From a bacterium (lineage in GTDB: Bacteria > Bacillota > Bacilli > Lactobacillales > Streptococcaceae), in the NCBI GenBank assembly GCA_905221455.1, contig CAJNDF010000007.1:62001-126000 (forward strand): DNA of 64,000 nucleotides. Direction: 5' to 3'. How positions within the stretch are numbered: position 1 is the first letter of the stretch; the number at the start of each line of letters is the position of its first letter. Made by a program: the position numbers and the translations under genes. The notes beneath the pieces were generated by a model. That model was given only the letters and a program-made list of their open reading frames with translations. It had not been told where the DNA came from and ran no database searches. Positions 44,654 to 55,777 of the stretch are shown one piece after another.

Positions 44654-46003
44654 TTACTCTTTGTTCAAAAATTGATCCAAATAATAACGTAGATAACTTT
44701 TCTTGCTTGTAATCATCTGCAGGCGACCTTCCACCCCGTACCGAAGTTTTTCAGCCTGCTCAGCAGTCAGATCGGTCTCCGCCTCGATTTTAAAGAAATT
44801 CCCTTTCTCAGTCTTAGTAGCTGTCGCATCAATACTTGTAATAGTAGAATCTAGGAAAATTTGATTCTTGGCATCATGAGTCGTCGTATAGCGAACAGAA
44901 TCACCGACCTTGATCCTTGCTACATCCTTTGAACTTAGATAAGCTGTAAGTTTGGCTTTCCCTTCTTTTTCCAAGGACGGATAGAGTTGGGCTAGTAGGG
45001 CACCTTCTGCTACCATGGTAGAATCACTGGTCTCAGTATTAAGATGAAGCACCCCATCCTCACTTGCCATAATTTTCCCCTTGTCTAAAAGATTTCCCTG
45101 TACCTTCTTACCTGATTCTGCCTCTAAGATCTTTTGGTCTAAAAGAGTCAATTCCTGACCAACCTTAGCCAAGTGTTGTGATTTAAGGGATTCCAATTGA
45201 CTGCTTAAGCCAGACGCATAGGCTTGCTGGGTACCTGAACCTGCATACTGAACACGGTAAGTAGCAAGACTAGATTCTAACTGAGAAAGCTGCGCTTCAA
45301 CCTGCGCCACTGCCTGAGCCTTAGCTTGCGGATTTTCCTCGCCCTGAGACTTATAGGACTGGTAGAGAGAGTAGGCTAGATTCTGACTGGCCAAAGAAGC
45401 ACCTGTTTCAATAGCTGACTTAGCTGTCTGGTAATCGCGAATTTTAGCCTCTGTTTGGCTGATGAGGTTCCCGATTTCAGCTTGGGTTTGACTAGCTGCT
45501 GCATTCTGGGACGCGATAGTCTCGTTTTGTTGCGATGTACTAGCCCTAAGACTGCCTGCTTGACTGATGTAGTCGCGAAAGGTGGCTTGGTAGCCAAACT
45601 TATCCTCCTCTGGAAAGTAATCCGTCCCTTCTTGCAGGCTCTTTTGCAAATACTCCAATTGCTTTTTTTGATCCTTGAGCATGTCCAGCTGACTGGCATA
45701 AGACTCCGCTTGAACACCTTCTGCCCCTTCCTGATATTGAAGCAGAAGTTCCCCCTTCTTAACCAGCTTATTTTCTTCCAAATGATTGACAAGAATGCGA
45801 TTGTTGCTAGTTGACTGGATATTTGCAAGGATACGACTAGGCTCAACAGTAGCTCTAGTTGACAAACTCATCTCCTTCTCTGCCAAAGTTGCAAAGCCAA
45901 GCAAAAACACAAGCAGAAGGGACATGGGTACAATCACCCGACTGGAAAAATTATGGTAACGACGATTATAAAACTCCGCACTTTCTAAAAATTCTGGTTT
46001 CAT
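44654..46003 (-). CDS. comB: Competence peptide exporter accessory protein ComB
   Basis: 449 aa. One membrane helix near residues 20-42 ([19 protein letters not shown]), a long coiled-coil periplasmic-type region rich in Gln/Ala (about 95-300), and a C-terminal beta-rich adaptor part ([18 protein letters not shown]). It belongs to the HlyD/membrane-fusion family and pairs with the ComA peptidase-ABC exporter to secrete competence-stimulating and other double-glycine peptides. It starts 12 nt after comA; RBS GGAGAGG. Confidence 0.95.
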
Positions 46004-46015
46004 CCTCTCCTCTTT

Positions 46016-48169
46016 CTAGCTATTCACCAAATGGGCGTAAAAGCCACCCTGTGCAAGCAAATCAGCATGCTTTCCTTCTTCAACAATCTTTCCTTGATCC
46101 AAGATAACAACCTTCTCTGTCCGCTCAGCAATGGTCAAGCGGTGAGCAATGAAAATCAAGGTTTTATCTAAAGCCATGAGATTATCGACAATTCGCTTCT
46201 CTGTCAAAATATCCAAACTGCTGGTCGCCTCATCCAAAATCAAGACAGGCGCATCTGTCAAGAGAGCACGCGCCAGAGCGATTCTCTGACGCTGGCCACC
46301 TGAAATCCCTGCCCCATCCGAAGTCAATTCTGTCTGGTAATTCAGTGGCATACGCTCGATATCCTCCCGAATCTCTGCCAACTCGACCGCCCGTAAAATA
46401 TCTTCCTGAGTCGTCCCCTCCTTGGCTCCAAGGAGAAGATTCTCCAAAATCGTCCCGTTAAAGACATAGGGCTGTTGAGGCAGATAGTTAATGTACTGGC
46501 GCAAGGCCTTTTTGTCAATCTGATTAAGATTGACACCACCCAGACTAATCTCTCCCTGACTTGGATCGTAAAAATTAACCATCATCTTGGCCAAGGTCGT
46601 CTTACCTGATCCTGAAATCCCCACAAAAGCCACCTTAGAACCTTGTGGAATAGTCAAATTGATATCCGACAAGACATCTCGACCATAGCCATACTTGTAG
46701 TAAACCTGCTTGAAGGACATCTCTCCCTTCATCAAGCTCAAATCCTCAACCGTTTTCTTCTCCTCAAACTCCGAAGCTACCAGATAAACCTCATTCAGAC
46801 GGTTATTGGCAACCTGCGCTGTCTGAAGCTTGGTTTGCAGGTTGATGATATTTTCCAAAGGATTGGTAAAGTAAACCAGCAAGGTATTATAGGTAATCAA
46901 CTGCCCCAAACTCATCTTACCATCCATGACCAGAACAGCTCCCATCCAGAGAATGCCGACATTAAGTAAGAGATGAGCAACCTTTTTCAGAGCCTTTTGC
47001 TGACTCTCTGCCCGACTATAGGTAAAGGATTTTTTCAGATAATCCACAAATTCCTTGTCAATCTTTTGGTAACGCTGACTTTCACTGGTCAATGACTTGA
47101 TAGTCTCAATACCGTTGATGTCCTCGATGATAGAAGAAGACAGAACCGCATTGGCTTCCATGGTATCCCGATTCATCTTTTCAAACGGCTTCATAAAGGC
47201 AAAGATAATCACTGTATAGATAGGAAGCGCCAATAAGGTCATGAAAAAGAGATTGGTATTTTGTGAAAATAAAACAAGAGAAATAATGACGACCGTTGAC
47301 ACATCTAGGAAAATCGAAAGAATGGTCGAAGCCAGCGCGTCAATGATACTGTTAGCATCTGTAAAACGAGACACGATTTCCCCTGTTCTGCGTGTCGCAA
47401 AGAAAGACATAGGCAGGTGAAAAACATGCTTGATATAGGACAAAATCACATCAATCGACAAGCGTTGCCCCAAAACAAGTAAGAGATACTCCTGAGCGTA
47501 AGACAAGATCTGCTGAAGAATATAAACAATCACCAGCCCAATAGAAATAATCCCCAGTGTCGAACGCATCTGATCTGGCACATAGGTATCAATGATAGAC
47601 TGCAAATAATAAGAACCCACAATGTTAATCAAGGTGACCAAGAGTGTTGCCAAAACGATATTAGTAATCAAGCCACGCTGCTTCACTAATATAGGGATAA
47701 AAGAGAGAAGGCCATTCTTTTGATCCTTATGAGGCTTATAGTCTGGACTAGGTGCCATAAACAAAGTCACTCCCGTCCATTCTTCCGCAAAACGCTCACG
47801 TGGCAGTTTGGTCAATTTCACCCCAGGATCTGGGTCGGCAATATGAATGCTGTTCTTATCCTGCCCAGTCACCACATAGTAGTGGAGCAATTTTCCTTCC
47901 TTAAGCACATGGGCAACAAAAGGAAAAGTCAAATCTGGCAAGTCAAAAAGCGTCATATCCGCCTTAATTGCTCGCGTCTCAAAACCAATCTCCTCTGCCA
48001 CCTTGACCAAGCCCAAGGCCGTAGTCCCATCCATGGTCGTCTTAGCCAATTCTCGCAAGTGAGCCAAAGAATAGTAGCTACCATAGTAGCCAAAAACCAT
48101 GGCTAATGAAGCTACACCGCAGTCCATCTGATCCACCTGCGGACGATAATGACGTTTCCCAAATTTCAT
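46016..48169 (-). CDS. comA: Peptidase-containing ABC exporter ComA
   Basis: 717 aa from ATG 48169 (MKFGKRHYRPQVDQMDCGV); an ATG at 48175 abuts the GGAG and is less likely. The N-terminal C39 peptidase has catalytic Cys 17 (DQMDCGVASLAMV) and His near 96 (HYYVV), and cuts after the double glycine. Six membrane helices span about 160-440. The ABC domain shows Walker A GISGSGKTT (about 508-516), signature ISGGQRQRI and Walker B VLILDEATSS. It processes and exports CSP and bacteriocin-type peptides. Several double-glycine peptide genes lie upstream here. Confidence 0.97.
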   Translation of the reverse strand: MKFGKRHYRPQVDQMDCGVASLAMVFGYYGSYYSLAHLRELAKTTMDGTTALGLVKVAEEIGFETRAIKADMTLFDLPDLTFPFVAHVLKEGKLLHYYVVTGQDKNSIHIADPDPGVKLTKLPRERFAEEWTGVTLFMAPSPDYKPHKDQKNGLLSFIPILVKQRGLITNIVLATLLVTLINIVGSYYLQSIIDTYVPDQMRSTLGIISIGLVIVYILQQILSYAQEYLLLVLGQRLSIDVILSYIKHVFHLPMSFFATRRTGEIVSRFTDANSIIDALASTILSIFLDVSTVVIISLVLFSQNTNLFFMTLLALPIYTVIIFAFMKPFEKMNRDTMEANAVLSSSIIEDINGIETIKSLTSESQRYQKIDKEFVDYLKKSFTYSRAESQQKALKKVAHLLLNVGILWMGAVLVMDGKMSLGQLITYNTLLVYFTNPLENIINLQTKLQTAQVANNRLNEVYLVASEFEEKKTVEDLSLMKGEMSFKQVYYKYGYGRDVLSDINLTIPQGSKVAFVGISGSGKTTLAKMMVNFYDPSQGEISLGGVNLNQIDKKALRQYINYLPQQPYVFNGTILENLLLGAKEGTTQEDILRAVELAEIREDIERMPLNYQTELTSDGAGISGGQRQRIALARALLTDAPVLILDEATSSLDILTEKRIVDNLMALDKTLIFIAHRLTIAERTEKVVILDQGKIVEEGKHADLLAQGGFYAHLVNS

Positions 48170-48207
48170 ATTCATCTCCTTTTTCCTAAACTCATCTGAT
48201 AATACCT

Positions 48208-48326: not shown

Positions 48327-48515
48327 TTATTTCTTTTTCTTCCTAATTCTTTTGTCAATCATATATAAAACGATAATCGAAAACAGCGGCGGAACAATAT
48401 AACTCTTTTCACTCATTGTCAGCTGAAATCCCAGAATCGCTAGTATCTTAAAGATGAAAATATTCATTACAAATAGAAAAACAAATACTAAAAAATATTT
48501 TAAAACCTTCTTCAT
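48327..48515 (-). CDS. Small two-helix membrane protein, candidate bacteriocin immunity
   Basis: 62 aa: two hydrophobic helices (about residues 5-27 and 41-55) and a basic tail (DKRIRKKKK). No leader or double glycine. Size, topology and position in a bacteriocin-like peptide cluster suit an immunity protein, but I do not recognise the family. It lies between two copies of the comA promoter region and is transcribed toward comA. Confidence 0.6.
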   Translation of the reverse strand: MKKVLKYFLVFVFLFVMNIFIFKILAILGFQLTMSEKSYIVPPLFSIIVLYMIDKRIRKKKK

Positions 48516-48890: not shown

Positions 48891-49046
48891 TTAACGTCTG
48901 CTTCCTAGATGACGACCGTACATATAGGCAACAACTCCTAAAACACCCCAAGCGATAGCTGTAGAAGTAGTAATAATAAGTCCACCCTCGGTACTAGCCA
49001 AATCTGCTTCTGCCATGATCTCAAATTTTTCTTCTAATTTTTTCAT
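48891..49046 (-). CDS. Double-glycine leader peptide C (bacteriocin-like)
   Basis: 51 aa. Leader MKKLEEKFEIMAEADLASTE then GG at 21-22; mature part of 29 aa starts LIITTSTAIAWGVLGVV and ends in a basic GRHLGSRR. One hydrophobic helix. Substrate type for the ComAB exporter. Last of four tandem small genes; RBS GGAGTAGGTGGG upstream. Class II bacteriocin by form, activity unproven. Confidence 0.75.
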   Translation of the reverse strand: MKKLEEKFEIMAEADLASTEGGLIITTSTAIAWGVLGVVAYMYGRHLGSRR

Positions 49047-49070: not shown

Positions 49071-49223
49071 TTAACCAAACGTACGAGATAACCAATAACC
49101 AGCTACCCCAGCTCCACCTGCAGCAAGTAATGAGCCTCCGATAACAATCAATAAACCCACTCCGCCTTGTACTTGCTCTAATTCATTTTGCTTTACGATT
49201 TCAAATTGATTCAAATTTTGCAT
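49071..49223 (-). CDS. Double-glycine leader peptide B (bacteriocin-like)
   Basis: 50 aa. Leader MQNLNQFEIVKQNELEQVQGG fits the classic double-glycine consensus (LxxxExVxGG spacing). The 29-aa mature peptide begins VGLLIVIGGSLLAAGG and has several GxxxG-like spacings, as in two-peptide class IIb bacteriocins. RBS AAGGAG, 7 nt before ATG. 24 nt separate it from peptide C. Confidence 0.8.
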   Translation of the reverse strand: MQNLNQFEIVKQNELEQVQGGVGLLIVIGGSLLAAGGAGVAGYWLSRTFG

Positions 49224-49236
49224 GATATACTCCTTT

Positions 49237-49347
49237 TTAAATAATACTAGCTAATCCAATAGCTACTCCTACTAATAAACCCACTATTCCTGAGGCTGAT
49301 ATAATAACAGCCGCAAATTCGTTTGAAAACTTCATTGATTCTCTCAT
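49237..49347 (-). CDS. 36-aa hydrophobic peptide without a leader
   Basis: MRESMKFSNEFAAVIISASG, continuing through a hydrophobic helix with GVAIGLASII at the end. The ATG at 49347 overlaps the stop of peptide A (TAATG), so translation may be coupled; a second ATG at 49335 would give 32 aa. There is no double glycine. Its GVAIG stretch echoes the end of peptide A. It may be an immunity peptide, a leaderless partner or a decayed bacteriocin. RBS weak. Confidence 0.55.
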   Translation of the reverse strand: MRESMKFSNEFAAVIISASGIVGLLVGVAIGLASII

Positions 49348-49520
49348 TATCTCTTGTTTCGACTAATTCCAATAGCTACTCCTGCACTTAAACCAGCAAA
49401 TGCTGAACCTGCAATAATACTAGCTGCTACTGCTATCGGAATAATTCCCCCATCTACATTCATCAACTCTTCTTCTGTAAGAGCTACAAAGTTCTGTTCC
49501 ATTTTGTCAAAATTTGTCAT
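49347..49520 (-). CDS. Double-glycine leader peptide A (bacteriocin-like)
   Basis: 57 aa. Leader MTNFDKMEQNFVALTEEELM then NVDGG (residues 21-25) is very typical of streptococcal class II bacteriocins. The 32-aa mature part begins IIPIAVAASIIAGSAFAG and ends GISRNKR. RBS AAAGGAG. First of four tandem small genes. Likely processed and exported by ComAB or a Blp-type exporter. Confidence 0.85.
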   Translation of the reverse strand: MTNFDKMEQNFVALTEEELMNVDGGIIPIAVAASIIAGSAFAGLSAGVAIGISRNKR

Positions 49521-49550: not shown

Positions 49551-49598
49551 TTACGATTTCTGGATCTTAAACCATTTTAAAAACCAGAATAGATAAAT
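49551..49598 (-). pseudogene. Decayed fifth copy of the 16-residue PWF-type microprotein
   Basis: In frame it reads (I)YLFWFLKWFKIQKS then TAA, like the four intact copies upstream, but the start position is ATT and no ATG/GTG/TTG or SD is present. It lies about 118 bp after the last intact start, close to the 125-bp period. Confidence 0.55.
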
Positions 49599-49665
49599 TA
49601 CTGAATTTCTTTTCTTCTCACTTATCTATTTGAGAAGTGATTTAAAATGAACAGGTAAATTTCAT

Positions 49666-49716
49666 TTATTTTAAATACCATTTGATAAACCATGGCAATA
49701 AGATTGGTAAATACAT
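49666..49716 (-). CDS. 16-residue microprotein, array copy 4
   Basis: MYLPILLPWFIKWYLK then TAA. RBS GGAAGGAG lies 8-9 nt before the ATG. Hydrophobic, with Pro-Trp-Phe in the middle and Lys at the end; no leader. Start lies exactly 125 bp after that of copy 3. The most diverged intact copy. Family not recognised. Confidence 0.75.
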   Translation of the reverse strand: MYLPILLPWFIKWYLK

Positions 49717-49790
49717 CGCGTAGTCTCCTTCCTTTTCCTCTTACTTATCTATTCGAAAAAAATTTCGAAAATGTACAACTAAATTAAATT

Positions 49791-49841
49791 TTATTTCAAA
49801 AATAATTTAATGAACCACGGATACAAGATTGGTAGATACAT
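49791..49841 (-). CDS. 16-residue microprotein, array copy 3
   Basis: MYLPILYPWFIKLFLK then TAA. RBS AAAGGAG before the ATG. Intermediate between copies 1-2 and copy 4: P4 and PWF as in copy 4, LF.K end closer to copies 1-2. Conserved 5' and 3' flanks within the 125-bp unit. Confidence 0.75.
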   Translation of the reverse strand: MYLPILYPWFIKLFLK

Positions 49842-49915
49842 AAACCAGACTCCTTTCTTTTCCTCTTACTTATCTATTCGAAAAAAATTTCGAAAATAAA
49901 CAACTAAATCAAATT

Positions 49916-49966
49916 TTATTTAAAAAATAACTCAGTGAACCATGGGTAGAACATTGATATAAACAT
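49916..49966 (-). CDS. 16-residue microprotein, array copy 2
   Basis: MFISMFYPWFTELFFK then TAA, identical to copy 1. RBS AAAGGAG, 7 nt before ATG. The identical coding stretch with slightly different flanks suggests a recent duplication. Confidence 0.75.
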   Translation of the reverse strand: MFISMFYPWFTELFFK

Positions 49967-50040
49967 AAACCAGGCTCCTTTCTTTTCCCTCTTACCTATC
50001 TATTCGAAAAAAATTTCGAAAATGTACAACTAAATTAAAT

Positions 50041-50091
50041 TTATTTAAAAAATAACTCAGTGAACCATGGGTAGAACATTGATATAAACAT
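50041..50091 (-). CDS. 16-residue microprotein, array copy 1
   Basis: MFISMFYPWFTELFFK then TAA. RBS AAAGGAG, 8 nt before the ATG at 50091. First unit, just after the terminator of the response regulator gene. An internal ATG at codon 5 could give a 12-residue form, but the SD spacing favours the first. Confidence 0.75.
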   Translation of the reverse strand: MFISMFYPWFTELFFK

Positions 50092-50141
50092 GAACTAGGC
50101 TCCTTTCCTTTTCCTCTTACTTATCTATTCGAAAAACAATT

Positions 50142-50184
50142 CAAAAAAATAAGAATATCAGAAAATTTTCCGACATTCTTATTG
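50142..50184 (-). terminator. Terminator of the pheromone two-component operon
   Basis: On the minus strand AATAAGAATGTCGGAAAA TTTTCTGATATTCTTATT followed by TTTTT: a long stem with few mismatches, about 27 bp past the response regulator stop. It separates the regulator from the microprotein array. Confidence 0.8.
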
Positions 50185-50210: not shown

Positions 50211-50942
50211 TTAGACATTGAGATGTTTTTTAAGGGTTCTTCTGGCTGTTCGTGACACGGGGAAGTGCAAGCCTTCTAACAGGGTCACTTCTGTGGCAGT
50301 CATCTCTTCAACAGCCTGTAAACTGACTAACGTATTGCGATTGGCATAGACAAAGTAATCTTTTTCAGCCTTGGCAGCGATATCCTTGAGACTGCCATAA
50401 ATGGTCTTGATAGAATGATTAGCATAATAGACCTTGATACGATGGGATTCCACTGAAGTTTCAAAGGCCAAAATCTCATGGTAGGGCAGAGTAAAGCCCC
50501 GTCTCCCCTCAAAACTATAGGTAAAGAGACGCATATTTTCCCTCTTATCCACTGCCAGTATATAGTCCAGACAGCGCTCCAGCTGATGACGGTAATCCTC
50601 CTCAGACTGATCCTTGGAAATAAAATCCAAGGCAGACAAGTGGTAGCGAAAAGCTAGAGGCAAGGCCTCCGAGTGCGTGGACACAAAGACAATGCTTGTA
50701 AAAGGATCCCGCTCCCGAACCTGTTGGGCAACCTGAAAGCCCCGTTCACGCTCTCCATCAATCTCTAAATCCAATAAATAGAGTTGGTAATGGTCAAAAT
50801 ACTGAGAATACTTTTCAACATCCCCATAGTTTTTGGCAATATCAATTTCCAATCTTAAATTGCGAGAGCGACCGATATCTAGCAAAGTCTGCTCTATCCG
50901 TCCTTGTTGGACTCTATCGTCTTCCAAAACTAAAATTCTCAT
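50211..50942 (-). CDS. LytTR-type response regulator (ComE/BlpR-like)
   Basis: 243 aa. Receiver domain with acidic pocket LEDDR (residues 6-10), phospho-Asp in YLLDLEIDGERERGFQVA (about 58-60), and VSTHSEALPLAFRY with ALDFISKD (K near 114). The LytTR DNA-binding domain (about 145-243) has ILAFETSVESHRIKVYY and FPVSRTARRTLKKHL. Closest in form to ComE and BlpR, which bind tandem repeats. It overlaps the kinase stop (ATGA). Confidence 0.88.
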   Translation of the reverse strand: MRILVLEDDRVQQGRIEQTLLDIGRSRNLRLEIDIAKNYGDVEKYSQYFDHYQLYLLDLEIDGERERGFQVAQQVRERDPFTSIVFVSTHSEALPLAFRYHLSALDFISKDQSEEDYRHQLERCLDYILAVDKRENMRLFTYSFEGRRGFTLPYHEILAFETSVESHRIKVYYANHSIKTIYGSLKDIAAKAEKDYFVYANRNTLVSLQAVEEMTATEVTLLEGLHFPVSRTARRTLKKHLNV

Positions 50943-52273
50943 TCCTCTCCCCCTCGTTTCTTATCCTTAAATGGCAATTCTAAATCTTGTCTAAAGGTCG
51001 TTTCTCCTAGCTGGGTATCTAAGTTTAAATCATAATGAAAAACCATATCCTCCAAGGTCGCTAAGCCCAGTCCACTGTGGTTTCCCTTAGTCGAATAACC
51101 CTTTTGACTGAGAATGCTGGGATTCAGTTCTTCTTTCTTACGAGTGTTTTCAATGATAAAACGGACACTCCTATCGCCTGCCAATAAAGCAACCCGAATC
51201 TGCGGATGTTCCGCCTCACTGGCTGCCTCTAAGGCATTTGTCGTGAGGATAGAGAGGATACGGATAGCCTCCAACATCGGCAAAGCCAGCTCTTCTACGA
51301 CCCCCACCGTCTCCAAACTAAAATGAATTCCTTGCTTATCTGCCACAATCATGGCTTTTGCCAAGGTATTACGAATGGCTATATCATGGATATTATGAAG
51401 ATTAAAGGCCGTGTAATCCGCCTTCCTCAGCTTTTCATTGGTCTTTAGAAAGACATCTTGATAAATGGTAGAAACTTCAGCCATGTCTTGATTGGCTATG
51501 GCAGGCTCCATGCTGGCGACAATCCCTGCAAAATCATGACGGAAACCTCGAACTTCATCATAGAGATGACCTAGCTTATCCACCATTCCTTGCAAGGAAC
51601 GATTTTCATCTTCCTGTCTCTGAATGGTCTGCTCATCACGATAAGCCTGTTCCAAATGCTTGACGTAAAAGAGCCAAGAGAAAAATAGGATGAAAATCAG
51701 GAGAGAAATGGTCGTATCAAATCGAACGTAGAAAGAACAATTTATATTTGTCATAAACGAAGAGAATATCCTAAACACAGTCAGAGGTAGGATAATGAAA
51801 AAACTCTTATAATAGTGGGTTTTGAAAGCATCTGAAAAGAATAAATCCAAATCCAAAGACCAACGCTTCATCATAACTACTGTCAGTACAAGAGCTAGTA
51901 GAGAAAAAGTAGAATTAACAATACCATTTCCTACTTCTGATAGCATATCTATATCTAATATCCGAATATAGAACAATACCAATAAATAGCGAATACTCTG
52001 ATAAAAACTAAAAAGATAGAATGAAAGAAATAACGATTCCCCCTTTTTCTTCCTATTCACATAGAAAATAAGGTAAAAAAAGATTAAAACTTCCAAATAC
52101 ATAATTTCAAAAAAAGTTTTACCAGCTATTACTTGCATCATTAATAAATAGACTATGTATCTCTTTTTACGAAATTCCGGTATAATTTGGTAACCTAGAT
52201 AAATTGGAGGAACTATAATGGAAACCATCAGCAATAAAGCAAATAGAATCTCCTTAATAAAAGTCAAAACCAT
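50939..52273 (-). CDS. Peptide-pheromone histidine kinase (HPK10, ComD/BlpH-like)
   Basis: 444 aa from ATG 52273 (MVLTFIKEILFALLLMVS), 1 nt after the stop of the peptide gene; an in-frame TTG at 52282 is an alternative. Six or more membrane helices fill residues 1-210. The phospho-acceptor is in RGFRHDFAGIVASM (about residue 250), and the ATPase shows LTTNALEAASEAE and HSGLGLATL, with no classic F box, as in the AgrC/ComD group. It should sense an exported peptide, most simply the one encoded next to it. Confidence 0.88.
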   Translation of the reverse strand: MVLTFIKEILFALLLMVSIIVPPIYLGYQIIPEFRKKRYIVYLLMMQVIAGKTFFEIMYLEVLIFFYLIFYVNRKKKGESLFLSFYLFSFYQSIRYLLVLFYIRILDIDMLSEVGNGIVNSTFSLLALVLTVVMMKRWSLDLDLFFSDAFKTHYYKSFFIILPLTVFRIFSSFMTNINCSFYVRFDTTISLLIFILFFSWLFYVKHLEQAYRDEQTIQRQEDENRSLQGMVDKLGHLYDEVRGFRHDFAGIVASMEPAIANQDMAEVSTIYQDVFLKTNEKLRKADYTAFNLHNIHDIAIRNTLAKAMIVADKQGIHFSLETVGVVEELALPMLEAIRILSILTTNALEAASEAEHPQIRVALLAGDRSVRFIIENTRKKEELNPSILSQKGYSTKGNHSGLGLATLEDMVFHYDLNLDTQLGETTFRQDLELPFKDKKRGGEE

Positions 52274-52274
52274 A

Positions 52275-52436
52275 CTATCCAATCACAGTTTTAGTTGGTG
52301 CTGGACTACAATACCGAGGTTGGCAAAGCCCAAACAAAGAACAAAAGAAATTCCCTCCACCATTCACTTCCTCCAAAGCCTCTGGAGTTAACTCTTCAAA
52401 TTGTTCCAATTCTACAAATGTGTTTTTCATTTCCAT
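52275..52436 (-). CDS. Double-glycine peptide, candidate pheromone of the adjacent kinase
   Basis: 53 aa, MEMKNTFVELEQFEELTPEA then LEEVNGG: a textbook double-glycine leader. The 26-aa mature part begins GNFFCSLFGLCQPRYC and ends PAPTKTVIG, with three Cys. RBS AAAAGGAG, 6 nt before ATG. Gene order peptide-kinase-regulator copies comC-comD-comE. It does not look like CSP or BlpC, and the Cys content would also fit a bacteriocin. It should be exported by ComAB. Confidence 0.8.
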   Translation of the reverse strand: MEMKNTFVELEQFEELTPEALEEVNGGGNFFCSLFGLCQPRYCSPAPTKTVIG

Positions 52437-52588: not shown

Positions 52589-53764
52589 TTATTTAACCAC
52601 AACCACTTTATAATATTCGTTTGAGTGTGGAGATTCAATCTTAATTTTTTCACCGTATAAACCATCGATTTCTTTATCCAGATAATCTGAAACTCCTGAT
52701 GGCAAGCGTTTCATCTTAAGAATTTCACCAGATTGATCCGCATAGGCTAGGATGTGATAGTGGGCTGTAGCCATACCATCATCAATCAATACAAAATAGC
52801 CTGTTTTAAGCTTACCTTGCTCATTTTCTAAATAGTATAGTTTATTATTATTGATTGTAAAGTGGGTAGCTCCAAGACGAAGTCGTGCACCTGGATTTTC
52901 TAAATAGACATCATTACCAACTTTTTTAATCTCTGAATAGGTTGTCATTGCTGGGATATTAACCACACGATGTCCATTTTCATCAAAGTAGTAGCGATTT
53001 GGTAAGTTTTGGAAGTTCTGTACAACTGCCTTAGGATCAATTTCTTGTCCTTCTTCTTTATTATCCACTAAAGCTAAGGTAGTATTTGCAACCTCATCCC
53101 CATATTTGTTAGAGAACTTCTTGAACTCTGGTCTGATATACCAAGCATTTTTTTCAATAATAACATCGTCACCTTTAGCATTTAGCAAATATTCTTGCCC
53201 ATCTCCAAGTTTGACAATATCATGAATATTGTATCCAGCATCTTTTCTATTTGCTAGATAGCCATCCTTACCAATGACATAACTTTCCCCATCACTGGCT
53301 GGAACAGCTCTATCTGCGACCATAGCACCTGATTTTTCAAAGTAAGACCATTTACCATCTATGAACACCCAACCTGTCATCATAGAACCACTAAAATGAA
53401 GATAGTACCATGTAGACCCTTCTTTGTACCAACCTGTACGCATGGCGCCACTATCTGCTAGTGAGTACCATGTGCTACCTTCCTTGTACCAGCCAGTGCG
53501 CATAGCACCACTGTCTGCTAGTGAATACCATGTGTTACCGTCTTTGAACCAGCCTGTCTGCATTTTACCAGAACCGTCAAAGTGGTACCAAGAACCAGCA
53601 TTTTGCACCCATTTATCCTTAGCTAAACTGCCATCTTGTGAAAGATTCCAGTCAGCACCATTTTTAACCCAAGTATCTGCAGCCTGTGCTTGGTTGATAG
53701 ACAAAAGTAGACCAGCACCTGCAAGCAAGCCAAGTGTAAGTAGTTTAGATTTTTTCATAGCCAT
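52589..53764 (-). CDS. Choline-binding protein with N-terminal repeats
   Basis: 391 aa. Signal peptide MAMKKSKLLTLGLLAGAGLL, cut after AQA near residue 28. About six choline-binding repeats (WVQNAGSWYHFDGSGKMQTG type) at residues 35-155, three of them nearly identical (GWYKEGSTWYSLADSGAMRT). The C-terminal part (about 160-391) has no enzyme motif I know. The layout with N-terminal choline-binding repeats recalls CbpF-like proteins, which dampen LytC; that link is only by architecture. Located on phosphocholine-bearing teichoic acid. Confidence 0.82.
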   Translation of the reverse strand: MAMKKSKLLTLGLLAGAGLLLSINQAQAADTWVKNGADWNLSQDGSLAKDKWVQNAGSWYHFDGSGKMQTGWFKDGNTWYSLADSGAMRTGWYKEGSTWYSLADSGAMRTGWYKEGSTWYYLHFSGSMMTGWVFIDGKWSYFEKSGAMVADRAVPASDGESYVIGKDGYLANRKDAGYNIHDIVKLGDGQEYLLNAKGDDVIIEKNAWYIRPEFKKFSNKYGDEVANTTLALVDNKEEGQEIDPKAVVQNFQNLPNRYYFDENGHRVVNIPAMTTYSEIKKVGNDVYLENPGARLRLGATHFTINNNKLYYLENEQGKLKTGYFVLIDDGMATAHYHILAYADQSGEILKMKRLPSGVSDYLDKEIDGLYGEKIKIESPHSNEYYKVVVVK

Positions 53765-53870: not shown

Positions 53871-54729
53871 TTACCAATATCTACGAATTGTATTTTGATC
53901 CATTCCATATTGATTCATATAAGAAACATATTGACCTGGACGTGGAGCATGAACTACATTTCCACCACCAACATAAATACCCACATGTTGATTTGAACCT
54001 TGGTCGCCATTGTACAATATTAAATCTCCAGGAAGTTGTGAACCACTATATATAAATTTCCCTCCTTCAGCTTGTTCTCCAGTTGTTCTACCAATATAAA
54101 TATCGAACTTAGCATGAATAGCCATCGTAAATCCTGAGCAATCTACACCCTTATCCAAGTCTGCCCCACCCCAAACATATGGGATTTTCCCTACAAATGT
54201 CTTTGCGTATTCACCAAGTGCCTGTCCACGATTTTCTACCCATACACCACTGGCTCTAAAGAAGTATGGCGTACCATTCACACGTTGATAACCAGTGACC
54301 ATAGCACCACTAGCAGATAAGTAGTAATAATTACCATCAGGTTGAATCCAAGTATTTTCTTTCATCCATCCTTGGTCATCAAAATAGTACCACTTGTCAT
54401 CTAATTGTTCCCAATTTTTAGCATAACCACCTGAACCGTATTTAAACCACCATTTACCATTGGTTTGCATCCATGTTCCTTTCGGATCACGATATTGATT
54501 GAAAGCTTTCTTCTCTTGATTACCCTCTGCTTGAGTTTCTTTATCTTCAAAACCAATCAATTTTACTTGATCAGCTTCTTCAGCTTTTATCTTGCCTTGA
54601 TTAACTAATTGAGCAATCGCTTCTTTCTCACTTGCTGATGGGGAATCAGCATAGGCTACCGTAGTATTTGCTAAGAGAAGGCCTCCTGCAAGAACTAATA
54701 AACTAGAATAAAGATATTTTTTTCATCAT
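53871..54729 (-). pseudogene. NlpC/P60 choline-binding hydrolase, frameshifted in the signal peptide
   Basis: The ATG (54729 or 54726) leads into a run of seven A (54717-54723 on the minus strand) and then TAG after about seven codons. With six A the frame would read MKKYLYSSLLVLAGGLLLAN, TVAYADSPSASEKEAI and on through the whole protein, about 285 aa. Downstream: choline-binding repeats (about 80-180), then an NlpC/P60 domain with catalytic Cys in VDCSGFTMAIHAK, His in QHVGIYVGGGNVVHAPRP. A Met-start frame from 54560 exists but lacks the signal. It is either a pseudogene, a slip-prone phase-variable gene, or an assembly error. Confidence 0.8.
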
Positions 54730-54895: not shown

Positions 54896-55552
54896 CTACT
54901 CAACAATCACTTTTGTCATATCAAGAGCCATTGGTTGATAGTATACATCAGGGTGCTTATTATCCCTAATAATCTCACCGTATTCAACAAAACCAAACGA
55001 TTTATAAAAATTAATCACTTTATCTTCATTGACACTATCCAAATAAACCATTTTACCCCCTAAAATGCTCTGGGCTAATTGAATTTTTTCAACCACTAAT
55101 TCCATAACTTGCTGACCAGTAATTTTATTAAAGTGTAAATTTCTACCAAATTGGGCAATCAAAAGTCCTGGTATATAATTTAAGTTTCTCGCGTTTTTCC
55201 CACTTAAAACAAAAGATTTTTTGTTATCATTATCTAATTCTTGAACATTAACAATTTTTAATGTTAGTGTAAAAAAACCTAAAATCTCAAATCTATCTCC
55301 TGATATCTCTTGATCAATAATAATAAAATTTCTCGATTTATGTGTCAGCTCTGTTGTAATTGCGTCATTTTTAAGATACTCTAACATATCCTCATTTTTA
55401 CCAAACGACACTTGCTCAGAAACAATCTTAGAGAAGTTCTCACGGACTTTTTGACGTATTCTCCGTTCATTAGTATATTCAGGATTTCTAGTAATAACGG
55501 TTTGTCGTATAAACTTGATGACATCCCCTAGTGGTAAGGCATATAATTTCAT
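54896..55552 (-). CDS. GNAT-like acetyltransferase, candidate toxin
   Basis: 218 aa. GNAT-like features: GFFTLTLKIV strand (about residues 92-101), YIPGLLIAQFGRN (about 127-139), and YLDSVNEDKVINFYKSFGFVEYGE (about 176-199), the usual last motif. The acetyl-CoA loop between them is not a clean R/QxxGxG/A. It starts 3 nt after a 53-aa upstream gene and is probably co-transcribed. Small-gene plus GNAT pairs are a known toxin-antitoxin form (TacAT, AtaRT), where the enzyme acetylates charged tRNA. That role here is inference. Confidence 0.65.
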   Translation of the reverse strand: MKLYALPLGDVIKFIRQTVITRNPEYTNERRIRQKVRENFSKIVSEQVSFGKNEDMLEYLKNDAITTELTHKSRNFIIIDQEISGDRFEILGFFTLTLKIVNVQELDNDNKKSFVLSGKNARNLNYIPGLLIAQFGRNLHFNKITGQQVMELVVEKIQLAQSILGGKMVYLDSVNEDKVINFYKSFGFVEYGEIIRDNKHPDVYYQPMALDMTKVIVE

Positions 55553-55555
55553 ACT

Positions 55556-55717
55556 TTATCTTACCAGCTTCTCTAGACCTAGTAAGGAAGGTTGTTCTTG
55601 TTTATCTGTATTCTTTTTGATAATATCAAGCAACAAATCAGTTGATTTAGAGGCTTGAATTTTTTCAAAATCTTCTTTTGTGAGTGTGATATCACGAGTA
55701 ATACTAAATGTAGCCAC
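55556..55717 (-). CDS. Small protein upstream of the GNAT gene, candidate antitoxin
   Basis: 53 aa from GTG 55717 (MATFSITRDITLTKEDFEKI), chosen because AAAGGAAG lies just upstream and a promoter -10 occupies the in-frame ATG at 55750. The first strand TFSITRDITL followed by helix resembles the ends of antitoxins, but no ribbon-helix-helix signature is certain. The C-terminus (NTDKQEQPSLLGLEKLVR) looks like a flexible toxin-binding tail. Pairs with the GNAT gene. Confidence 0.6.
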   Translation of the reverse strand: MATFSITRDITLTKEDFEKIQASKSTDLLLDIIKKNTDKQEQPSLLGLEKLVR

Positions 55718-55748
55718 GAGTATACTTCCTTTCTCTTCTAATAAGTCC

Positions 55749-55777
55749 ATTATAACGTGTTTTTCCCATTTTTACAA
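55749..55777 (-). promoter_or_regulatory. Promoter of the candidate toxin-antitoxin pair
   Basis: TTGTAA (55772-55777), a 17-bp spacer and TATAAT (55749-55754) on the minus strand. Transcription would start near 55742, about 25 nt before the GTG start at 55717, which rules out the ATG at 55750. Confidence 0.75.

Follow-up and report, generated by a model that had tools for sequence, protein, structure and literature searches.

Many mitis-group streptococci of the mouth carry a tandem array of micro-ORFs of 16 or so codons ahead of the competence-associated bacteriocin (cab) genes with which they attack other bacteria nearby. In the window, by which we mean the whole 64,000-nucleotide stretch of DNA that was analysed, the array holds four ORFs of 16 codons (51 nucleotides) on the minus strand, spaced 125 bp apart. 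That these micro-ORFs are real genes and also stand under SigX-type control is, as a joint claim, very probably right. What are such genes for? We read the array as a series of distinct late-competence genes that serve the deployment of the cab bacteriocins by way of the producer's membrane. Taken whole, this reading is tentative, with belief and doubt close to balance.

The starts, lengths and peptides of the four ORFs, and the Shine-Dalgarno sequence of each, are all as an earlier note on this DNA had described them (Table 1). The note was right to see a gene array; it overlooked the SigX boxes, the cab link, a fifth unit and a third type of peptide. An AAGGAG-type Shine-Dalgarno sequence precedes all four micro-ORFs and lies at a like distance in other copies. 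A repeat scan of the window recovered the 125-bp direct repeat independently of the ORF calls, and a degenerate pattern of the ORF matched 78 of 284 Streptococcus genomes against a single match for the reversed control pattern; together these rule out a chance repeat. The fifth unit, of the third peptide type (type C), has decayed: it reads CAAATA instead of CGAATA and, relative to the locus with which it was aligned, has lost its Shine-Dalgarno sequence and ATG. The product of micro-ORF 4 occurs as an identical peptide in relatives. The terminator scan, whose total in the window (three, against a shuffle mean of 2.4) shows no excess, reported no terminator between the array and the bacteriocin genes.

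Table 1. Features of the array and of the genes that follow it in the window.
Feature	Coordinates	Strand	Details
SigX (cin) box, micro-ORF 1	50126..50133	-	TTCGAATA
Shine-Dalgarno, micro-ORF 1	50100..50106	-	AAAGGAG; read from sequence
Micro-ORF 1	50041..50091	-	ATG 50091, TAA end 50041; MFISMFYPWFTELFFK, 16 aa, net charge 0
SigX box, micro-ORF 2	50001..50008	-	TTCGAATA
Micro-ORF 2	49916..49966	-	ATG 49966, TAA end 49916; MFISMFYPWFTELFFK, 16 aa, net charge 0
SigX box, micro-ORF 3	49875..49882	-	TTCGAATA
Micro-ORF 3	49791..49841	-	ATG 49841, TAA end 49791; MYLPILYPWFIKLFLK, 16 aa
SigX box, micro-ORF 4	49750..49757	-	TTCGAATA
Micro-ORF 4	49666..49716	-	ATG 49716, TAA end 49666; MYLPILLPWFIKWYLK, 16 aa
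Decayed fifth unit, type C	about 49561..49640	-	Alignment with locus L169
Terminator-like stem, 16 pairs	50148..50183	-	Between array and LytTR response-regulator gene
cab-type double-glycine bacteriocin gene	49347..49520	-	NCBIfam lactobin A/cerein 7B; Pfam Bacteriocin_IIc
Second double-glycine bacteriocin gene	49071..49223	-	NCBIfam lactobin A/cerein 7B
Third double-glycine peptide gene	48891..49046	-	Motif; no family match
62-aa hydrophobic ORF, immunity-protein candidate	48327..48515	-	Inferred from position; no family match
comA, peptide cleavage/export ABC transporter	46016..48175	-	Named by place and papers
comB, bacteriocin secretion accessory protein	44654..46003	-	Named by place and papers

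Relatives were retrieved by synteny with plsX because recruitment by the peptide itself was to be avoided. All 284 of the 284 Streptococcus genomes matched in the plsX search; among the matches listed, at least 99 genomes had a plsX of at least 91% identity, and 95 of these, from the mitis group, were fetched. The downstream stretch was taken from the 95 and from 20 more distant genomes; in four others (G230, G234, G235 and G257) plsX is at the end of a contig, and these were not used. The scan of each locus began at CGAATA and accepted every ORF preceded by a suitably spaced ribosome site; the ORFs were typed afterwards. In 78 of the 95, acpP and comA lie in order on one contig, which with the window gives 79 loci. 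The stretch lacks comA in the other 17, seven of which still have micro-ORFs. The 20 regions from more distant genomes contain no micro-ORFs, and comA is absent from those regions.

Intact micro-ORFs are present in 68 of the 79 loci and number 190. They comprise 150 PWF copies (types A and B), all of 16 codons, and 40 of type C (for example MISVIYPIWLFKWLRG), of 16 or 17 codons; the type C tally takes in two 16-codon members first classed as 'other'. Neighbouring copies are spaced 122-126 bp apart in 108 of 122 pairs, and adjacent copies are identical in 6 of 114. Length is not absolute, since one locus outside the 79 (L006) has a copy of 12 codons. No copy is found in nine of the 79 loci: in six the gap between acpP and comA measures just 213-245 bp, in two (L135, L155) other genes occupy it, and in one (L139) it contains a double-glycine peptide lacking a SigX unit. 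Two further loci, L190 and L191, have an intact type C copy right after acpP, behind a box decayed to TTGAATA, and the next bacteriocin gene has a premature stop.

A strict pattern searched with one genome per species matched 54 stretches, all in records labelled Streptococcus; the species include S. mitis, S. oralis, S. infantis and S. pseudopneumoniae. Records labelled S. pneumoniae also appear among the matches and may be mislabelled relatives. A general pattern of SigX box plus 16-codon ORF, a search that had no positive control, matched 4 of 80 genomes taken from those that the degenerate ORF pattern had not matched, against six control matches; all four matches fall in a single look-alike stretch that encodes no PWF peptide. 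A phage origin was rejected, the strict pattern having no match among viral contigs.

Is the peptide or the DNA under selection? Between them the 59 distinct A/B ORFs specify 30 peptides; their pooled pS is 0.59 and their pN 0.17, hence a pN/pS of 0.29. Entropy at codon positions 1, 2 and 3 is 0.44, 0.34 and 0.98, so that variation falls mostly on the third position; this phase bias was equalled by 17 of 20,000 column permutations. Codon-phase conservation and a constant frame, as expected of protein-coding sequence, thus both characterize the A/B kind. For type C the ratio is 0.32 over 14 distinct ORFs (24 copies of 16 codons, the 16 copies of 17 codons being excluded), and its phase bias taken alone is not significant, being reached by 2226 of 20,000 permutations. 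An earlier run on loci partly recruited by the peptide pattern, now superseded by the synteny set, also gave a ratio of 0.29; the shuffles, 42 of 200 of which were usable, had a mean of 0.86 and a minimum of 0.38. Judged by this comparison of sequences, it is shown to be the amino-acid sequence that evolution keeps in the micro-ORFs, and the earlier note's argument for selection on the peptide is borne out by the A/B ratio and third-position variation. All 59 distinct A/B ORFs end in AAATAA; some constraint at the nucleotide level may therefore exist too.

Among the findings named in the earlier note as counting against it were common frame-breaking changes in relatives and a conserved RNA element in place of the coding frame. 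By manual classification, clear breaks are rare in the A/B kind, with 2 (L126, L137) against 150 intact copies; an assembly gap interrupts one further A/B copy (L151). In type C breaks are frequent, about 8 against 40 intact and the window's fifth unit besides (L141, L146, L151, L158, L168, L171, L180 and L187). One copy (L154) has a GTG start, and remnants in L133 and L149 fall outside the classification. As for RNA, the fold z of 30 units averages -0.07 with a lowest value of -2.90 and none stands out, and the window has no Rfam match at the gathering threshold. A structured RNA element is accordingly disfavoured.

How are the genes switched on? The four window boxes start 41-42 nucleotides 5' of the ATGs. 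Among 192 distinct copies, counted on loci partly recruited via the peptide pattern, NNCGAATA lies upstream of 184; in 177 of these it starts at a distance of 39-43 nucleotides from the ATG. The full box reads TTCGAATA in 119 copies and TACGAATA in 19, the latter form mostly at the gene that opens an array. Boxes of the TNCGAATA type that marks SigX genes are thus present, with a T-rich stretch visible upstream in the printed units. Control loci pulled in by DNA similarity to the array, from other Streptococcus genomes, have the same box and style of leader at dprA (two cases) and at a single-strand-binding-protein gene, which we take to be ssbB. With these late-competence SigX genes the array shares the CGAATA box, the upstream T-rich stretch and a similar leader; it differs in that its products have only 16-17 residues, are encoded in tandem and are linked to bacteriocins instead of DNA uptake.

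Published work agrees on the box. In the available parts of PMC6001120 the SigX (cin) box is given as TACGAATA, with S. mitis variants whose second base is t, c or g, and TtCGAATA is given for the Cib-like operon at the cab locus, whose SigX dependence was established by RT-PCR. Induction by CSP through sigX is published for the cab operon as a whole (PMC6001120, PMC13059744). The boxes lead us strongly to infer that SigX would transcribe each of the window's copies.

The array locus is the published cab locus (PMC13059744, available in part). It shares with the cab locus of S. mitis the place between plsX-acpP and comAB, the SigX boxes and the double-glycine bacteriocins (PMC13059744, PMC6001120). 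The difference is that those papers, in the parts available, treat the box stretch as a promoter, whereas here the same stretch encodes 16-residue peptides. In S. pneumoniae TIGR4, blpU is reported at this place, and in D39 a transposase gene in addition (PMC6001120). Assemblies frequently have a contig break at the cab locus (PMC13059744). The link to bacteriocin genes is constant: in 68 of 68 loci a double-glycine gene lies 3' of the last copy on the same strand, 32-168 nucleotides away (median 45). Where copies occur at two places (L130, L137, L145, L158), both are ahead of double-glycine genes; no micro-ORF copy stands directly before the later double-glycine genes of L127, L134 and L147. 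The first bacteriocin takes 36 different mature forms, accompanied by few types of micro-ORF peptide; MYLPILLPWFIKWYLK heads 14 of the 36.

The sequence shows each unit to be laid out in the order box, leader, Shine-Dalgarno sequence and 16-codon ORF. In all likelihood SigX transcribes every unit in the competent cell, and transcription continues into the double-glycine bacteriocin genes; the array would therefore be both a multiple promoter and a set of genes. Its products would be short, leaderless, hydrophobic peptides with a Lys at the end, mostly of charge +2, which would insert in the producer's own membrane. Such insertion is probable. The 14 commonest peptides are very hydrophobic, with a mean Eisenberg hydrophobicity of 0.44-0.55, and 13 of the 14 have a net charge of +2; MFISMFYPWFTELFFK, encoded by two of the window's four genes, has a charge of 0. 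As the earlier note had held, no double-glycine leader occurs among the listed variants, and the peptides thereby lack the mark of the Cab double-glycine bacteriocins.

In the membrane the peptides might serve the bacteriocins generically, by protecting the producer or by holding Cab peptides at the surface. Constant linkage to bacteriocins together with indifference to their type is the argument for a generic service. We regard a producer-side accessory role of this sort as possible, though with slightly more doubt than belief. CabAB is retained by the producer and kills by contact, yet synthetic CabAB passes a transwell membrane; synthetic CabA and CabB are also enough for killing (PMC13059744). 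The microproteins must then be dispensable for killing as such, because the two synthetic peptides suffice. A membrane peptide made along with the bacteriocins could account for retention despite the free passage of the synthetics, which makes the family a candidate for this unexplained feature of Cab bacteriocins. The specific claim that the microproteins keep Cab peptides on the producer's surface for contact-dependent killing, shield its membrane, or both, whichever bacteriocin is made, is itself unlikely. If it were true, they would constitute a new class of bacteriocin-deployment factor.

Could the peptides instead be weapons? The earlier note had suggested leaderless membrane-active peptides, and such peptides, released or displayed on the surface, might aid killing by the bacteriocins. 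The tandem paralogues have diversified, as the scarcity of identical neighbours attests; they are hydrophobic and mostly of charge +2; and they are encoded within a bacteriocin locus. Genes for multi-peptide leaderless bacteriocins are laid out in tandem, and those of aureocin A70, garvicin KS and the cereucins likewise specify several related peptides without leaders. The array peptides, however, have about half the 30-31 residues of the leaderless peptides in the available part of a published table, and no transporter or immunity gene of their own was recognised in the ORF lists and gene maps, which do contain small uncharacterised membrane ORFs. The sole exporter recognised beside the array is comAB, and ComAB recognises double-glycine leaders (PMC13059744). 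Their amphipathicity is ordinary too: the helical moment of the 14 commonest peptides is 0.18-0.32, at the 29th-88th percentile of shuffles. Phenol-soluble modulins are typified by a strongly amphipathic helix, and no such helix is apparent among these 14, whose moments lie within the shuffle range. Finally, the same peptides precede many different first bacteriocins. Leaderless attack peptides are thus possible but not favoured; we think them an improbable answer.

Less probable still is that the micro-ORFs are regulatory leaders whose translation, or the stalling of ribosomes on them, tunes the bacteriocin operon downstream. They stand at the head of the operon, are short, have their own stop and end a median of 45 nucleotides before the first bacteriocin ATG. 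The 30 units folded show no unusual RNA structure, however. Because every unit has its own box, the transcripts would all share the last copy alone. Type C, which is always the last of its array or close to it, decays the most (about 8 of 49 copies broken, with the window's fifth unit in addition, against 2 of 152 for A/B, by manual classification). That the copy closest to the bacteriocin gene decays speaks against a switch by leader peptide.

The earlier note had also suggested short signalling peptides; that the products are such signals, with a receptor that is either encoded nearby or imported, is very unlikely. In size and aromatic core the peptides resemble ComS/XIP of S. mutans, and a sensor kinase/regulator pair adjoins the array in the window. 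An Rgg/RRNPP pheromone would have its cognate cytoplasmic receptor encoded alongside; the regulator beside the array belongs to a LytTR/GHKL pair. That pair has its own double-glycine peptide gene; the regulator ORF is missing from many array-bearing loci, and each array holds several diverse copies.

The published explanation of tandem SigX boxes is close to a further alternative, that promoter repeats were amplified for stronger bacteriocin expression and carried a short ORF along as a passenger. The strain under study had five tandem boxes, and another had up to 38; the boxes were explained as accumulated repeats that perhaps enhance expression, and removal of four of the five lowered expression of a reporter (PMC13059744, in the parts available). 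The invariant AAATAA ends would also suit a passenger. A pN/pS of 0.29 at a pS of 0.59, a near-constant length and the rarity of A/B breaks speak against it, and we give this explanation very little weight. If the published promoter boxes carry these ORFs too, removing them also removed genes. A toxin-antitoxin array is least credible of all: Ibs/Sib loci are tandem repeats that encode very small hydrophobic peptides, self-toxic and held down by antisense RNA in a type I system, yet no plus-strand sigma-70-like site passed the scan threshold in 49620-50140 (a weak test, because the scan finds as many sites in shuffles), and both the inferred tie of expression to SigX and the link to bacteriocin genes point elsewhere.

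The micro-ORFs add a new component to a locus of known kind and seem to form an undescribed gene family, probably because ORFs of 51 nucleotides are rarely annotated. The earlier note knew of no described family, and our literature searches found none: six peptide fragments searched as text gave no match, and the available text of the literature searched, figures and supplements apart, contains no description of these ORFs. The search for Cab peptides was restricted to ORFs of 100-300 nucleotides with a double-glycine motif (PMC13059744), limits that put the 51-nucleotide ORFs outside it. Two other studies, in the portions available, looked for unannotated small ORFs (PMC11921387) or examined small ORFs near bacteriocins by hand (PMC2828477), and their authors may therefore have seen these. 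The rio3 gene of S. pneumoniae D39 is a translated micro-ORF that likewise lies near comA, between sp_0041 and sp_0042; we rejected it as the pneumococcal form because its sequence, MNRNLERCYLF, differs, and the available main text of that paper contains no PWF, PWL or PWY string (PMC9426450). With this family the SigX regulon gains inferred members associated with predation genes, not with DNA uptake.

Several other features of the locus deserve mention. Between acpP and the array, at 50211-52436 on the minus strand, lie genes for a LytTR response regulator, a GHKL sensor kinase and a ComC-like double-glycine peptide, likely a quorum-sensing cassette; its regulator ORF is present in only part of the cab loci. 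Also on that strand, inside the locus, are a choline-binding-repeat protein (52589-53764), with ORFs of the same start recurring in other large cab loci, and an NlpC/P60 hydrolase with choline-binding repeats (53871-54560). Between acpP and the cell-wall genes, a 64-aa ORF and, after it, one of 218 aa (54896-55750, minus strand) resemble a small two-gene unit. In L041, L044, L111 and others a SigX unit like those of the micro-ORFs encodes a 42-residue double-glycine peptide (MKEHYYGFVELTSEELTDIQGG plus 20 residues, with variants); this peptide accounts for all 16 double-glycine units in the first locus set, and the 79 loci contain 12 double-glycine SigX units. A conserved membrane-like ORF of 60-66 aa (MFLKKEVI...) follows a box-like TGCGAATAGACC in a different setting in L116, L127, L133 and others.
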